Shown: positions 2,477 to 21,918 of the stretch, in pieces
Layout: each line of letters begins with the position of its first letter
Numbering within the stretch: the stretch's first letter is position 1
IMG/VR virus record: IMGVR_UViG_3300049893_001474
Span: 1-24,539 of that record
DNA from: a virus
DNA: 24,539 nt
Reading direction: 5' to 3' (one strand)
Made by a program: the position numbers and the translations under genes
Notes under the pieces: model-generated
Databases searched by the model: none
Told to the model about the DNA's origin: nothing
Seen by the model: only the letters and a program-made list of their open reading frames with translations

Positions 2477-2574
2477 CCCTCGGCGGCTGAAGTGGCACGC
2501 GAATCGAGTGGGGCGCGGCCTGCCTGGATGACCCAGGAGCGAAGAGACAGCCGTCGAGGACTTTGTGTGGTGTA

Positions 2575-2745
2575 TGGCAGCGTCGGCGTGGGTGGAGACA
2601 CGCCCATCGGCAGATGGTTAGGGTTCCTCGTTCGTGGGGTGCGCTGGCGATGACGGGCACGAAGACCGGTCCTGCCCCGAGCACTACAGCGCGTCGGGAA
2701 CGGTACACCCAGCCCTAAGGCCGGTTCGATTCCGGCACGCTGCCA
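2575..2745 (+). ncRNA. candidate tRNA-like structured RNA
   Basis: The 3' part reads GCCGG-TTCGATT-CCGGC (2720-2736), a perfect five-pair tRNA T-arm with the consensus TTCRANY loop. It is followed at once by ACGCTGCCA (2737-2745), which pairs over nine bases with TGGCAGCGT at 2575-2583, as an acceptor stem would. Between them lie a D-arm-like hairpin GGCGTG-N8-CACGCC (2585-2604), a short CATC-GGCA-GATG hairpin (2605-2616) and a long arm closed by TTAGGG/CCCTAA (2618-2623 with 2713-2718), inside which GCGCTG/CAGCGC and GGGCA/TGCCC nest. At 171 bases it is too long for a tRNA, has no usable anticodon arm or encoded CCA, and lacks the conserved 5' tmRNA sequence. Alternatives are an att site carrying a tRNA 3' end, or chance. 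The preceding bases 2477-2574 hold only a small CCTGG/CCAGG hairpin (2523-2537). Confidence 0.4.
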
Positions 2746-2762: not shown

Positions 2763-2790
2763 AGCGGCCACCGGGTGAGGGGTGGCCGCT
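2763..2790 (+). promoter_or_regulatory. 10-bp perfect hairpin ahead of the early operon
   Basis: AGCGGCCACC (2763-2772) and GGTGGCCGCT (2781-2790) form a perfect stem around an eight-base GGGTGAGG loop. No T-run follows, so it is not a standard intrinsic terminator. It lies 66 bases before the SSB-like gene and just after the tRNA-like element, and could be a processing site, an attenuator or a protein-binding site. Confidence 0.5.
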
Positions 2791-2856: not shown

Positions 2857-3426
2857 ATGGGAATTATCGCAAAGGCGACAGGTGATGGGCAATCGTTCGA
2901 TCCGGCGCCAGCGGGCGTGCATCAAGCCGTGTGCGTGGATGTCATCGACAAGGGGCTTCAGGATGTGCCTGGCTTCAACGGCGGGCCTGCCAAGAAGAAG
3001 CACATGATTTCGATCGCGTGGCAGATCAACGAGCGTCGACAGGACGGGAAGCGTTTCGTGATCTACCGGCGGTACGCGTTGTCGCTGAACGAGAAAGCGT
3101 CGCTCCGCAAGGACCTGGAGAGCTGGCGCGGGCGTCCGTTTACGCACGACGAGGAGATGGGGTTCGACCTCGACAACCTCCTCGGCGTCAACTGCCTGCT
3201 CAACGTCCAGCACACGGCGCGCGATGGACGAACCTACGCGAACGTCAGTAGCGTGATGCCGCTCATGCGCGGGATGGCAAAGCTCTACCCACTGGATTAC
3301 GCCCGCGAGTCGGCGAGTGATGGTTCTCAGGCGCCGACGGTGGAGCCAGAGAACGCGACGGTCACGGCGCCGCAGACGACGGAGACCGGCTTCGAGCCGC
3401 TGACCGACGATGACATCCCCTTCTGA
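2857..3426 (+). CDS. ssb: single-stranded DNA-binding-like protein
   Basis: The protein has 190 residues. The clearest sign is the C-terminal tail LTDDDIPF after an acidic Ser/Thr-rich linker: DDDIPF is the canonical bacterial SSB tip that recruits replication and repair partners. The core (MISIAWQI, RFVIYRRYALSLNEKASLRKDLESWRG, DLDNLLGVNCLLNVQH, TYANVSSVMPL) matches a phage family often left as hypothetical and assumed to adopt an OB fold. ATG 2857 is set by GAGGAGG 9 bases upstream; the open frame back to 2782 has no such site. As first gene of the early operon it should protect single strands for the exonuclease, recombination and replication proteins that follow. Assignment to SSB rests mainly on the tail and context. 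Confidence 0.72.
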   Translation: MGIIAKATGDGQSFDPAPAGVHQAVCVDVIDKGLQDVPGFNGGPAKKKHMISIAWQINERRQDGKRFVIYRRYALSLNEKASLRKDLESWRGRPFTHDEEMGFDLDNLLGVNCLLNVQHTARDGRTYANVSSVMPLMRGMAKLYPLDYARESASDGSQAPTVEPENATVTAPQTTETGFEPLTDDDIPF

Positions 3427-6637: not shown

Positions 6638-7503
6638 CGGTCTCTGGCGACGGGTGGCGGCTGACGGAAGGCGACTGTATCGACGGCGTGAGTGGCCTCG
6701 CCGCCGACAGCGTGGACCTCTCTGTGTTTTCGCCGCCGTTTATCAGCCTCTACACCTACACGGCCAGCGAGCGCGACATGGGCAACTGCGCGAACGCGGC
6801 CGAGTTCTTCGAGCATTTCTCGTTCCTGATCGCTGAACTCCTTCGCGTGACCAAGCCTGGCCGGCATGCCTGTGTGCATGTGCAGCAGGTCGCGGCGATG
6901 CTTGAGCGCGACGGCTACATCGGCATCAAGGACTTCCGCGGCGATACGATCCGCGCGTTCCAGGCTGGCGGGTGGATCTATCACGGGGAGGTGTGCATCG
7001 ACAAAGACCCACAGGCGCAGGCCATTCGCACTAAGGCGAAGGGGTTACTGTTCGTCCAGATGCGAAAGGATTCCTCATGGTCGCGGCCGGCGCTCGCGGA
7101 TTACATTCTCGTGTTTCGCAAGCCTGGCGAGAACGCCGTCCCAGTCCAGCCGGACATCTCGAATGAGGACTGGATCCAGTGGGCTCGGCCGATTTGGTAT
7201 GGGATTCGCGAGAGCGATACCTTGCACGTGGCTGAAGCGCGTGGTGACGACGACGAGCGCCATATTTGCCCGCTCCAACTGGGCACCATCGAGCGGTGCG
7301 TGCGGCTGTGGTCGAATCCTGGAGAACTCGTATTGTCGCCGTTCGCGGGCATTGGGAGCGAGGGTTACGAGGCTGTCCGTCTAGGCCGTCGATTCCTCGG
7401 CTTCGAGTTGAAGCCGAGTTACGCGCGTGTTGCGGCAGAGAACCTGCGCGCGGCGGAACGGGCGAAGGCGCAGGGGTCGCTGTTCGCCGAGTCGGTGCGA
7501 TGA
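6634..7503 (+). CDS. DNA N4-cytosine/N6-adenine methyltransferase
   Basis: The protein has 289 residues of beta-class order: the catalytic motif SPPF is at residues 33-36 and the SAM-binding FAGIGSEG at 237-244, followed by RFLGFELKPSYA. SPP[YF] is typical of N4-cytosine enzymes, though some N6-adenine enzymes use related motifs; Phe in the last position is less common than Tyr. An orphan phage methylase usually guards phage DNA against host restriction or marks origins. No restriction endonuclease partner is visible. The ATG overlaps the helicase stop (ATGA), so the two are made together. Confidence 0.88.
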   Translation: MTVSGDGWRLTEGDCIDGVSGLAADSVDLSVFSPPFISLYTYTASERDMGNCANAAEFFEHFSFLIAELLRVTKPGRHACVHVQQVAAMLERDGYIGIKDFRGDTIRAFQAGGWIYHGEVCIDKDPQAQAIRTKAKGLLFVQMRKDSSWSRPALADYILVFRKPGENAVPVQPDISNEDWIQWARPIWYGIRESDTLHVAEARGDDDERHICPLQLGTIERCVRLWSNPGELVLSPFAGIGSEGYEAVRLGRRFLGFELKPSYARVAAENLRAAERAKAQGSLFAESVR

Positions 7504-7751
7504 CCGACGCCGACGTCATCGACGCGATCCGGCGGTGCCATCTAAAGGCGAATATCGACGACTTTGAGCGCGATCCGTCCTCTGATGTCCAGTGGGACCG
7601 CGCGACCATCGACGTCGGCGGGACGCCCATCTTTGGGAACGGGCCATATCTCCATGTGCCCGTCGTGACGACCGAGGATGAGTGCGTGGTCCGCGTCTAT
7701 CCGCCGGCGCGGCTGAGGCGGAGACTCGCGAAACGATGGGTTCGGCGATGA
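7500..7751 (+). CDS. hypothetical protein
   Basis: The protein has 83 residues. It begins MTDADVIDAIRRCHLKANID, has a beta-rich centre (ATIDVGGTPIFGNGPYLHVPVVTTEDECVVRVY would be three strands) and ends in a basic helix (RLRRRLAKRWVRR). It overlaps the methyltransferase by ATGA. I do not recognise a family. Confidence 0.6.
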   Translation: MTDADVIDAIRRCHLKANIDDFERDPSSDVQWDRATIDVGGTPIFGNGPYLHVPVVTTEDECVVRVYPPARLRRRLAKRWVRR

Positions 7752-7762
7752 CAGGAGGAGTG

Positions 7763-7981
7763 ATGCCCAAGCGAACACACGTCAACCGACACGACACCTA
7801 CGCCCCACGTGGACGTAGACCGCAGCCACACGCCCCGCGCCGGACGTCGAGCTGGTGGCAGGATGCGCCCCGCGACGGCTTCCTCGAGCGCGCGACGAAA
7901 GAGACGGTGATCGCGCAGAGCGAGAAGCCGCCCTCGCTCGTGATGGGCTGGCCCTCGGCCACGGAATGGGAGCCGGTGTGA
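7763..7981 (+). CDS. hypothetical basic Pro/Arg-rich protein
   Basis: The protein has 72 residues. ATG 7763 is chosen because AGGAGGAG lies immediately upstream (from 7753); an in-frame ATG at 7748 overlaps the previous stop and is the alternative. The first half is Arg/Pro/His-rich (YAPRGRRPQPHAPRRTSSWW) and probably disordered; the second is mixed (PRDGFLERATKETVIAQSEK). The end contains the GGGAG site for the next gene. No family recognised. Confidence 0.55.
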   Translation: MPKRTHVNRHDTYAPRGRRPQPHAPRRTSSWWQDAPRDGFLERATKETVIAQSEKPPSLVMGWPSATEWEPV

Positions 7982-8973
7982 GCGCGACCACCACGATCCA
8001 GTGGACGGACAGGACGTGGAATCCCGTCCGCGGCTGCTCCGTCGTCTCGCCGGGCTGCCATTCCTGTTACGCGATGAAGCAGGCGCACCGGTTCAGCGGG
8101 CCAGGCCGTCCGTTCGAGGGCTTGACGAAGCCGACGAAGTCCGGCCCGCAGTGGGCTGGCGTCGTTCGAACCGTCGAATCGGCGCTCCTGGATCCGATCT
8201 CGTGGCGGAAGCCACAACGGGTATTTGTCAACTCAATGAGCGACCTGTTTCACGAGTCCGTGCCCGACTCGTTTATCGACCGCGTGTTTGCCGTGATGGC
8301 GCTCGCACCGCAACACACATTCCAAGTGCTTACCAAGCGTGCCGACAGGATGCGGTCATATATGTCGTCGACAAAAGGGGCTGACGGCGTGATTTGTCGC
8401 GTGAATGCGGCAGCGAGAGAGATTCCCAAAGGTCGATGGTGGAAGGGGGCGCATACATCATGGCCGTGGTCGAACGTCTGGCTCGGCGTCAGCGCAGAGG
8501 ACCAGCAGCGCGCCGACGAGCGGATTCCGCTGCTCTTGCAGACGCCGGCTGCTGTTCGCTTCATCTCGGCCGAACCGTTGCTTGGGCCGCTAGATCTCCT
8601 GCTGCATCACGACTGGCTGACTGGTGAGAAGGAGTCAGTATCGGAGAAGACCCACACGCCGCGGCTCAACTGGGTCATCGTGGGCGGTGAGAGCGGACTA
8701 GGCGCGAGGCCGCTTGACGTGGCGTGGGTGCGCTCGATCGTGCAGCAGTGTCAGGCCGCTGGCGTCGCGTGCTTCGTGAAGCAGCTTGGGTCAGTGCCGA
8801 TGATGCTCGAGGCCGAGTGGAGAGCCCTGAGTTCCACGCCCATCTTGAATCACCGGAACGCTCGGCGAGTCCCTGACGGGTATGTCCCGCTACTCATGGC
8901 CGACCGTAAGGGCGGCGACATGGTCGCGTGGCCGGACGATCTCCGCGTGCGCCAATTCCCGGAGCCGGTGTGA
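7978..8973 (+). CDS. phage Gp37/Gp68 family protein
   Basis: The protein has 331 residues from GTG 7978, served by GGGAG 5 bases upstream and overlapping the previous stop. Landmarks of the Gp37/Gp68 family are all present: TIQWTDRTWNPVRGC, a three-cysteine cluster (Cys20, Cys27, Cys30), VFVNSMSDLFHE (82-93), FQVLTKRADR (115-124), WLGVSAEDQQRADERI, RFISAEPLLGPL and WVIVGGESGLGARP. The fold resembles radical-SAM barrels and the cysteines could bind an iron-sulfur cluster, but the reaction is not established. It is the last gene of the long coupled early operon. Confidence 0.88.
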   Translation: MSATTTIQWTDRTWNPVRGCSVVSPGCHSCYAMKQAHRFSGPGRPFEGLTKPTKSGPQWAGVVRTVESALLDPISWRKPQRVFVNSMSDLFHESVPDSFIDRVFAVMALAPQHTFQVLTKRADRMRSYMSSTKGADGVICRVNAAAREIPKGRWWKGAHTSWPWSNVWLGVSAEDQQRADERIPLLLQTPAAVRFISAEPLLGPLDLLLHHDWLTGEKESVSEKTHTPRLNWVIVGGESGLGARPLDVAWVRSIVQQCQAAGVACFVKQLGSVPMMLEAEWRALSSTPILNHRNARRVPDGYVPLLMADRKGGDMVAWPDDLRVRQFPEPV

Positions 8974-19901: not shown

Positions 19902-19919
19902 GTGGTGAGGAACAGGAAC

Positions 19920-20579
19920 ATGGATATGCTCATTGATCCGGCATGGGTCGCGGCGTACCACGACCGCGGCTACGGGCATATTCGCGACGTCTTTACTGCC
20001 GATGAGGTGGATCAGATGCGCCATATCGCCGATGGCGCAAAAGACGGACGCGCGTGGCGTGGACCCTGGCTCACGCCTGGGCAACAGGTCGCACTGCGAA
20101 CGGAACATGGCGTCCATGGGAGACCGCCAATGGATCGCTTGTGCGTCAACGAGCGCCTCATCGCGCATCTGACCGCGGTCATGCATGGACGCCACCCTGT
20201 GATCGATCAATCCACCGTCGTCACGAAACCGCCAACAATCGGGCAGCCGTTCCCACTCCACCAAGACGCGCACTTTTATGGTCAGAAGATTCAGGATTAC
20301 GCCATTGTGACCATCGTGCTGGATGCCTTCACGGACGACAACGGCCCGATTCGGTTCTTGCGAGGGTCACATCGTCGTGGACTCATCAAACACACGCGCG
20401 AGCATGGATCGAACAAGCCCGGGCTTCCACGGGATGAGTACAACCTCGATGACACGGACGTGGTCCTCGCCAACGCCGGCGACTGTCTCGTCTTTTCGGT
20501 TTATACCGTGCATGGCTCTGCACCTAACACCAGTCCACGCGCGCGGCGAACGATTCGTGTCGGATATCGCCCACAATAA
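19920..20579 (+). CDS. PhyH-type Fe(II)/2-oxoglutarate dioxygenase
   Basis: The protein has 219 residues. The iron-binding triad is visible: HQD (His114, Asp116) in FPLHQDAHFYG and His198 in YTVHGSAPNTS, followed by Arg209/Arg210 in RRTIRVGY for the 2-oxoglutarate carboxylate. NGPIRFLRGSHRRG is a further PhyH landmark. These enzymes hydroxylate small molecules, sugars or amino acids; the substrate here is unknown, and neighbouring transferases suggest a glycan or nucleotide-sugar. ATG 19920 is chosen for the GAGG 9 bases upstream; GTG 19902 is an alternative. Confidence 0.85.
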   Translation: MDMLIDPAWVAAYHDRGYGHIRDVFTADEVDQMRHIADGAKDGRAWRGPWLTPGQQVALRTEHGVHGRPPMDRLCVNERLIAHLTAVMHGRHPVIDQSTVVTKPPTIGQPFPLHQDAHFYGQKIQDYAIVTIVLDAFTDDNGPIRFLRGSHRRGLIKHTREHGSNKPGLPRDEYNLDDTDVVLANAGDCLVFSVYTVHGSAPNTSPRARRTIRVGYRPQ

Positions 20580-20584
20580 CCGCG

Positions 20585-21274
20585 ATGGGACGCACACTCG
20601 GGCTTGACCACTCGGCGTTTCTCGCTCTCGTGCGAGCCGGCGACAACGTGCTGGACATCGGCGCAAACGTGGGCGACTACACGCTGCGCTACCTCGAGGC
20701 CGTGGGTCCGACCGGGAGCGTGACCGCGGTGGAACCGATGCCAGAGGCCCGGGCGGAGCTCGAACGACGGACGCTGGAATACGCCCGTGGCCAGACGACG
20801 TTGCGCGGCCAGACGACGATCGTGGCAGCGGCGATTGGGGCCTGCGCGGGGCTGACGGCGCGGATGTACCGCGGCGAGGATGGCCGCCATGCCAGTCGGT
20901 GGCCGGCGAATATCCCGCGTCTCGTCGCGGGCACCGTCGATGTGCCGACGACGACGATCGACGCCCTGGTCTTGCCGACGACGCGGGCGATTAAGATGGA
21001 CGTGCAGGGCGCGGAGGTCGAAGCCCTCCGTGGCGCGCCGACCACCCTGGCCCAGCGACACGACATCGCGTGGTGGGTCGAACTCTGGCCGCATGGCCTG
21101 GAGACGGCGCAGGCGAGCCTTGACATCCTGGCGGATCTCTTCGCGTCGTCCGGATGGCGTCCGGTGTATGGGTGGGAGCCGGTGCGGCACGCGTTGCGTG
21201 GCGGCACGCAGTGGTCACACGCCGATGTGCTCGTGCAGCACGAGTCGGCGTGGATGAAGGTGAGGTCCGCATGA
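20585..21274 (+). CDS. FkbM-family methyltransferase
   Basis: The protein has 229 residues. Motif I is NVLDIGANVGDYTL (21-34), motif II VTAVEPMPEA (46-55), and IKMDVQGAEVEALRGA (136-151) is the FkbM signature. Such SAM-dependent enzymes O-methylate sugars or small molecules. It begins 5 bases after the dioxygenase stop and overlaps the next methyltransferase by ATGA, so the three act as a unit. A 12-bp repeat (20789-20800, 20807-20818) encodes a small GQTT duplication. Confidence 0.85.
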   Translation: MGRTLGLDHSAFLALVRAGDNVLDIGANVGDYTLRYLEAVGPTGSVTAVEPMPEARAELERRTLEYARGQTTLRGQTTIVAAAIGACAGLTARMYRGEDGRHASRWPANIPRLVAGTVDVPTTTIDALVLPTTRAIKMDVQGAEVEALRGAPTTLAQRHDIAWWVELWPHGLETAQASLDILADLFASSGWRPVYGWEPVRHALRGGTQWSHADVLVQHESAWMKVRSA

Positions 21275-21918
21275 AGATCGCTGCCACGTGGCCAGCGAAA
21301 ACGGGAGATAGTTGCGCGGACTTCTTTGGCACGTGCCTCCGCGCATTCGATCCGGACATCCCCTCGACCGCGTCGGTCTTGGAGATTGGGTGCGCCGAGT
21401 ACGACTGGCTCACGCCCGCGCATAGGGCCTGGCCCGAGATGACGCTGATCGGGATCGACTGGCGCGGGGTACAGAAGGCGCCAGTGGGGGCGCGCGTGGT
21501 CGAAGGCGACGCGAGGGATCCGACGCACTTTGCGCCGGAGTCGTTCGACTGGATCGTGAGCATCAGCGCGATCGAGCACATGGGACTCGGCCATTACGCC
21601 AAGGATCCGAAGGACGAGAACGGGGACGTGCGGGTCATGGCGAACGCCTGGCAGTGGCTGACGCCTGGCGGGTACATGTACGTCGATGTGCCGTGGAACG
21701 CCGGGGTCAACGCCTATCAGGTGTGCGGCACCAGCCATCGCGTCTATGACGACGCGGCGATCGCGCGGCGGTTCCTGGCCACGTCTGACACGATTCGGTG
21801 GCGCGGCGTCTGTACGCGGAAGCGCACGCAGACGCTCCTGATGGACACGCCGCGGCTGTCGGGCGGCGAGGACTTCTACTACATTGGACTCTGGCTCCAG
21901 AAGCCGAGCGGGGGCTAG
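21271..21918 (+). CDS. class I SAM-dependent methyltransferase
   Basis: The protein has 215 residues. Motif I is SVLEIGCAEYDWL (about 35-47), the acidic end of strand 2 is LIGIDWRGV, motif IV is ESFDWIVSISAIEHMGLG, and WLTPGGYMYVDVPW is the post-catalytic strand, as in Methyltransf_11 proteins. The substrate is unknown; sugar modification fits the neighbours. Coupled by ATGA to the FkbM gene and followed directly by the portal gene. Confidence 0.83.
   Translation: MKIAATWPAKTGDSCADFFGTCLRAFDPDIPSTASVLEIGCAEYDWLTPAHRAWPEMTLIGIDWRGVQKAPVGARVVEGDARDPTHFAPESFDWIVSISAIEHMGLGHYAKDPKDENGDVRVMANAWQWLTPGGYMYVDVPWNAGVNAYQVCGTSHRVYDDAAIARRFLATSDTIRWRGVCTRKRTQTLLMDTPRLSGGEDFYYIGLWLQKPSGG

Follow-up and report, generated by a model that had tools for sequence, protein, structure and literature searches.

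In tmRNA (RF00023) the acceptor stem and T-arm of a tRNA close a long domain that is not tRNA, and bacterial tRNA-Sec has an 8-bp acceptor stem, a 5-bp T-stem, a 6-bp D-stem and a UCA anticodon. The irregular allo-tRNA-like RNAs described from soil metatranscriptomes have anticodons and form cloverleaves of 8/4 or 9/4 composition (Mukai et al. 2017, as related in PMC7609411); in that account they have non-canonical acceptor/T lengths and an extra −1 pair, such irregular sequences occur in runs, and their role is unknown (PMC7609411). Phage T4 encodes species 1 RNA (rnaC, NC_000866 70908-71046), 139 nt long, which lies in a tRNA region and is labelled a small stable RNA in the annotation; its perfect T-arm (CCGGG-TTCGAAT-CCCGG) is followed directly by an acceptor-like strand.

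The locus described here lies in a soil-phage sequence of 24,539 nucleotides, hereafter the window (positions 1 to 24,539 of IMG/VR record IMGVR_UViG_3300049893_001474). The evidence supports the presence of a tRNA-like RNA gene that is neither a tRNA nor a tmRNA and has no usable anticodon arm (Table 1). The first-pass annotation had reported a perfect T-arm followed by nine bases which pair with the start of the element; the sequence reading agreed, and the 9-bp closing pair was recovered blind as inverted repeat I4 in an unguided inverted-repeat search. The D-arm-like and short hairpins reported between the stems are likewise present, and the element stands directly before the early operon, as had been stated, the first gene of which starts at 2857.

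Table 1. Positions of the tRNA-like element, its parts and neighbouring features in the window, and of the element of phage ATCC 8014-B2.
Feature	Position	Strand	Basis
Upstream closed RNA domain, 80 nt, 11-bp outer stem (one G-U), two inner hairpins	2479..2558	+	
Whole tRNA-like element, 171 nt	2575..2745	+	Read from sequence
Acceptor-stem 5' strand TGGCAGCGT (U-1, G1-U8)	2575..2583	+	9/9 Watson-Crick with 2737-2745
D-arm-like hairpin, 6 bp, GGCGTG 2585-2590 / CACGCC 2599-2604, loop GGTGGAGA	2585..2604	+	Sequence
Short hairpin CATC-GGCA-GATG at the anticodon-arm place, 4-nt loop, without anticodon	2605..2616	+	Sequence
Long insert, closing TTAGGG 2618-2623 / CCCTAA 2713-2718	2618..2718	+	Sequence
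Alternative closing of long insert, GGUU.GGGU/ACCC.AGCC	2618..2718 (insert)	+	MFE
T-arm: GCCGG 2720-2724, loop TTCGATT 2725-2731, CCGGC 2732-2736	2720..2736	+	Sequence
Acceptor-stem 3' strand ACGCTGCCA, A73 at 2745	2737..2745	+	Exact reverse complement of 2575-2583
Strong hairpin AGCGGCCACC/GGTGGCCGCT, no T-run	2763..2790	+	
First gene of early operon, phrog_862 (unknown function), GAGGAGG at 2841-2847	2857..3426	+	
Element of Lactobacillus phage ATCC 8014-B2	L263 1495-1708 (NC_047739 near 7413-7627)		

The element has an 8/5 composition (8-bp acceptor, 5-bp T-stem) with an additional U-1:A73 pair. The TTCRANY-type T-loop and the acceptor stem of canonical tRNA (RF00005) are both present, and in place of the anticodon arm with 5-bp stem and 7-nt loop there is a hairpin with a 4-nt loop. 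GG is present in the D-loop, U8 pairs inside the 9-bp helix, and A14 and the Levitt pair are not evident. CCA is not encoded at the 3' end, where CTT comes after 2745. Weak blastn matches to phage tRNA-Pro/Thr genes were obtained for the T-arm stretch.

Compared with tmRNA, the element gives no match to the tmRNA model, lacks G3-U70 and contains no frame with coding signal. It has the stem lengths of bacterial tRNA-Sec, but differs by the missing UCA anticodon, A73 instead of G73, a D-loop of 8 instead of 4, an arm of about 100 nt and the absence of an Rfam match. Both known RNAs have only single features in common with it. The window element resembles the allo-tRNA-like RNAs in having non-canonical acceptor/T lengths and a −1 pair, but differs from them, as they are described, by its 8/5 composition, an insert of about 115 nt and the lack of an anticodon loop. 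In T4 species 1, the 5' acceptor strand CGATTCG pairs at only 5 of 7 positions and no clear D-arm is seen; it scored 14.9 bits (E 0.21) with R1, the class model discussed below, and is at most a putative homologue.

The nine-base complement beside the T-arm had been judged unlikely to arise by chance, and the shuffling bore this out. When the whole window was shuffled 4,000 times with dinucleotide content preserved, a perfect T-arm with at least 7 paired acceptor bases occurred twice, and one with at least 8 did not occur. A D hairpin of at least 6 pairs with GG in its loop was found at the D-arm place in 0.4% of shuffled interiors (p ~0.004). The minimum free energy (MFE) fold of the element kept the acceptor stem and T-arm, with some differences in the D region and long arm. 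TTAGGG and CCCTAA are present as described for the long nested arm; the MFE fold pairs GGUU.GGGU with ACCCAGCC instead. Taken by itself, the insert has a fold at the level of shuffles (z +0.29). The whole element folds slightly better than shuffles (z −1.67), so that the tRNA-like frame alone is statistically secure. No crossing helices (pseudoknot) were found in the window insert.

Two small frames crossing the element (2528-2653 and 2650-2718) had been put forward as a caveat, to be decided by their conservation as codons. They score −0.17 and −0.11 bits per codon, like non-coding sequence, against +0.11 to +0.48 bits per codon in codon usage for the recognised genes of the window, and no gene-like codon score was found in any frame across the element region; the caveat can be dropped. 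Neither ARAGORN nor Rfam at gathering thresholds gave a match in the window, the tRNA and tmRNA models included, and relaxing E in the Rfam scan yielded only chance-level matches. Together with the missing anticodon arm, this upholds the first-pass view that the element is neither tRNA nor tmRNA. Of 1,440 variants from which pieces of the insert had been deleted, 135 received a tRNA call from ARAGORN; the identities called were inconsistent, which makes these calls uninformative.

The possibility that the 3' end merely equals a host tRNA end, as in an att site, had also been raised. The 23-nt 3' end was absent from all 84,980 species genomes searched, among which the true host may not be included, and this argues against a tRNA-derived att site. 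A 27-nt form had no exact match among the IMG/VR contigs searched, which comprised those other than the window's own. Among the cellular sequences compared, the closest match to the phage helicase, at 60% identity, is on a contig of an Acidobacteria metagenome-assembled genome, no more than a hint of an Acidobacteria host.

At loci related by phrog_862 (46-54% identity), no T-arm element was found at the corresponding place and no such paired arms occurred upstream of the related genes. Loci related by the helicase (up to 68% identity) had no T-arm element there either; for the NinB-like protein of the window, no relatives were found. The operon leader thus does not always include the element. 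No promoter-like site was found upstream on the plus strand, nor a terminator-like site near the downstream hairpin. Elsewhere in the window, GGCCCTGGCGTCCCTGGC repeats at the contig edge (1-90) read as collagen-like Gly-Pro-X on the plus strand, a DUF5131 protein (280 bits), of a family of unknown function, is encoded at 7855-8973, and adjoining genes for a PhyH-type dioxygenase, an FkbM methyltransferase and a DUF268-type methyltransferase, perhaps for glycan modification, lie at 19902-21918.

Similar frames around long inserts were found in other viruses. IMG/VR was scanned with gapped DNA patterns, the first with fixed acceptor ends and a free D-arm, the second with a fixed Leu D-arm and T-loop and a free acceptor. 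The first gave three loci with complete acceptor and T-stems, all with a tRNA-Leu D-arm. Long-insert tRNA-like genes are present in at least 110 virus loci, and the D-arm of most is that of tRNA-Leu. With the second pattern, elements of 116-148 nt were found (tRNA-Leu is about 85 nt), and among the matches listed 110 of 125 had at least 6 of 7 acceptor pairs, although the acceptor was outside the pattern. An alignment of 43 class members showed all 688 of 688 cells of the acceptor, D- and T-stems paired and 7 of 8 outer pairs changed on both sides; these rows were pre-filtered for acceptor and T-stem pairing, which makes the 110 of 125 among the matches listed the cleaner evidence. A further D-arm-free scan recovered elements with other D-arm types, namely L320 (GTAGCTCAGTGGTAGAGC), the Ser-like L334 and the Leu-like L315 and L354, and model R1, not trained on these four, recognised them at E 9e-5 to 1e-12. 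An ordinary tRNA lies within 1.5 kb in 44 of the 110 listed loci.

The class has no Rfam family of its own, though the general tRNA model recognises some members, and current annotation tools mostly miss such tRNA-framed phage RNAs. No description of it was found in the literature searched, which included few subscription journals. Two candidate properties of the class were rejected: a common pseudoknot in the inserts, crossing helices having the same mean z (−0.65) as nested pairs even if single cases such as L211 versus L146 look convincing, and a raised rate of −1:73 pairing, which is near that of ordinary tRNA-Leu in the same loci. The long-insert gene L043 8033-8179 is located directly 5' of a phage RtcB ligase gene and is preceded by queuosine-precursor-transporter-like and TGT-like genes, both recognised by eye. 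In L113, an integrase-like gene (575-1690, by eye) adjoins a long-insert tRNA-like gene and a second weak R1 match is present at 426-574; L168 1258-1669 is an Rfam tmRNA match of 78 bits in an 80-kb phage contig.

The window element resembles the Leu-type genes in that an acceptor stem, D-arm and T-arm surround an unrelated insert, and differs from them in that these have D-arms of the form GTGGCGGAAT...AGACGC and a 7/5 composition. Checked class members score about 27 to 81 bits with R1. The best match in the window has the exact ends 2575-2745 at 11.9 bits and E 0.16, its D-arm not being of the form GTGGYGGAAT..AGAC; by the class model alone it would not be accepted. The element is probably a divergent member, assigned to the class by its architecture, by similarity to one D-arm and by a single match in geometry.

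The geometry match came from a last scan of IMG/VR with the geometry of the window, in which an extra A gives the 8-bp acceptor helix plus the U-1:A73 pair; two earlier D-arm-free patterns had excluded this arrangement by the extra A before the acceptor strand. One of 13 matches was a true element, L381 3259-3409, with 9/9 outer pairs and 5/5 T-stem pairs, followed directly by a T7 run. Two acceptor pairs and one T-stem pair are changed on both sides relative to the window; acceptor pairing was used in the selection, T-stem pairing was not in the pattern. Its score with R1 is 20.2 bits (E 0.005). The recombination operon of this independent environmental phage, with genes for an Mgm101-like recombination protein, a PD-(D/E)XK nuclease and RusA, begins directly downstream of the element, a setting like that of the window. 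The same phage record has a second element, L382 1178-1316 on the minus strand, also with an 8-bp acceptor, which was found with R1 and not through similarity to the window; its D-arm is nearly identical to the window's and the most similar of all compared. The stretch after its acceptor aligns with that of the window (CGGCGTGGGTGGAGACACGCCCATCGG against CGGCGTGGTGGGTACACGCAATCGG, score 25, shuffle p 1e-4); the best D-arm score in 110 Leu-type members was 21. L381 has no similarity to the window in this stretch.

A scan of 3.5 Mb of loci for an 8-bp acceptor, D hairpin and T-arm gave nine matches, two of which were the window itself; U-1, the GTGG loop and a CTT that follows position 73 were combined in the window, L381 and L382. 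In these three, U-1 is present, C comes after the 8-bp acceptor, the D-loop has GTGG, and the T-arm and the CTT are likewise shared; on these features they are considered to form a subfamily. Lack of covariation in the closing stem among related phages had been named as an argument against the element. All paired positions stay paired in L381 and L382; both were found by searches that favour pairing, and their base-pair changes are therefore weak evidence, so that covariation receives thin support.

Other structured RNA may accompany the elements. The domain upstream of the window element has an MFE of −39.4 (z −3.03) and is also seen in the larger fold. In L381, three tandem closed RNA domains (2883-3255), each followed by a T-rich stretch, precede the element, with outer stems of 9-12 bp and z of −0.71, −3.40 and −2.60; the stretch contains four separate 9-mer arm pairs, against about 0.35 expected. 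In the early leader of the window, the element may thus belong to a small series of structured RNAs, which is an observation and not a demonstrated unit.

Cultured phages allow frame and insert to be compared within one host. An unannotated member of 214 nt is located in Lactobacillus phage ATCC 8014-B2 between the gene for the small terminase and that for the large one; the last ~33 nt of this member recur at 94-100% identity in many other L. plantarum phages. The tRNA-Leu-like frame GTGCTTGTGGCGGAATAGGTAGACGC...ATGTAGGGTGCAAATCCCTACCAAGCACA is common to nine phages (L263, L361-L368) of the Tybeckvirinae, Herelleviridae, Coetzeevirus, Sha1 and others, eight of them Lactobacillus phages and one labelled Hujiaoplasma phage zrk29-2. 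Their elements are mostly unannotated, and that of LP65 overlaps the annotated orf80. Among seven of the nine, mean identity is 94% in the frame and 41% in the insert, the level of shuffled inserts. Insert length varies from 2 to 160 nt, and in phage P1 (59 nt) the insert is almost absent. The comparison shows that phages of one host keep the frame, and unrelated inserts within one frame agree better with a tRNA frame of general use than with a single fixed fold. A group with an AGTCAGG acceptor (64 members, 53 distinct inserts) behaves like the Lactobacillus set. The tRNA region of ATCC 8014-B2 also contains a ROOL RNA (139 bits, L263 440-1012) near the tRNA-like element.

An acceptor-T helix with a D/T elbow suffices for recognition by RNase P and for CCA addition, and protects against exonucleases. 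The explanation we favour, and hold to be reasonably probable, is that of a phage non-coding RNA built on a tRNA frame and both released and protected by host tRNA-processing enzymes, in which the insert stands where the decoding half would be. The frame would have retained its acceptor stem, D-arm and T-arm, with about 115 nt of other sequence in the place of the anticodon and variable region. The RNA would be made from the leader of the early operon, cut by host RNase P at U-1/G1, trimmed at its 3' end by a host 3' tRNase or exonuclease and then supplied with CCA, and the tRNA elbow would shield it from decay. Its anatomy suggests that, once cut from the early transcript by the host, it would persist as an RNA of ~170 nt unable to decode, and it may act through the insert on a natural tRNA scaffold or through the frame occupying a tRNA-binding host protein. 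This reading is weakened by U8 lying in the helix, by A14 and a Levitt pair not being evident, by the weak R1 score, an insert fold at chance level and related phages without the element, as well as by the lack of a promoter-like site upstream on its strand.

That the RNA is a tRNA decoy or mimic, in which the top half occupies a host factor and the insert is only a spacer, is unlikely but the most serious of the alternatives. Candidate targets would be RNase P, the CCA enzyme, LeuRS, SerRS, EF-Tu or a tRNA-cutting defence enzyme. Recognition by LeuRS does not involve the anticodon, nor does that by SerRS; the mostly Leu-type D-arms of the wider class agree with such a role, as does the near-constant Lactobacillus frame across unrelated phage families with inserts unrelated or almost absent. 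The window element, however, is not of the Leu type and lacks CCA as well as a clear identity set, and a pure decoy would need no 115-nt insert. Both roles proposed in the first-pass annotation, a mimic recruiting a host tRNA-processing or charging enzyme and a decoy, are conjectural. A functionless, degenerate relic of a phage tRNA gene is less probable still. Its single copy, its divergence from the class and its absence from related phages would suit a relic, but decay would also strike the acceptor and T-stem, which are Watson-Crick at 9/9 and 5/5 positions, and long-insert members with intact frames are abundant.

An intron-interrupted tRNA gene, spliced to a decoding tRNA, is very improbable. 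When introns were allowed, ARAGORN reported a tRNA-Val for L043, where an RtcB ligase gene follows (L043/L114), but at default settings it then reported nothing in the window. Across the class, 79 of 102 members received intron-tRNA calls, against 83 with shuffled inserts, so that such calls carry no weight, and the reading was rejected on this control. The insert is shorter than known group I introns. A chance fold or an att site from a host tRNA 3' end is scarcely credible, for although blastn similarity to real tRNAs is confined to the T-arm, the shuffles never gave eight acceptor pairs with a T-arm, the 3' end was in none of the species genomes searched, and an att copy would carry no 9-bp partner 153 nt upstream.

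For the non-coding RNA on a tRNA frame, the wider pattern allows a tentative generalisation, which we regard as possible rather than probable: phages would widely encode host-tuned tRNA-framed RNAs, the constant top half being common to unrelated phages of a given host and the inserts freely exchanged, as natural scaffolds for the delivery of variable RNA cargo or against host defences that target tRNA, and the window would represent a divergent 8/5 lineage. If the RNAs are processed and stable, non-decoding RNA would be carried in phages on the tRNA fold, like on laboratory tRNA scaffolds. Some phage tRNA genes that are unannotated or oddly called would then be accounted for, and long-known stable RNAs such as T4 species 1 could be approached from their sequence. 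As cultured Lactobacillus plantarum phages carry the class, its function is directly testable.
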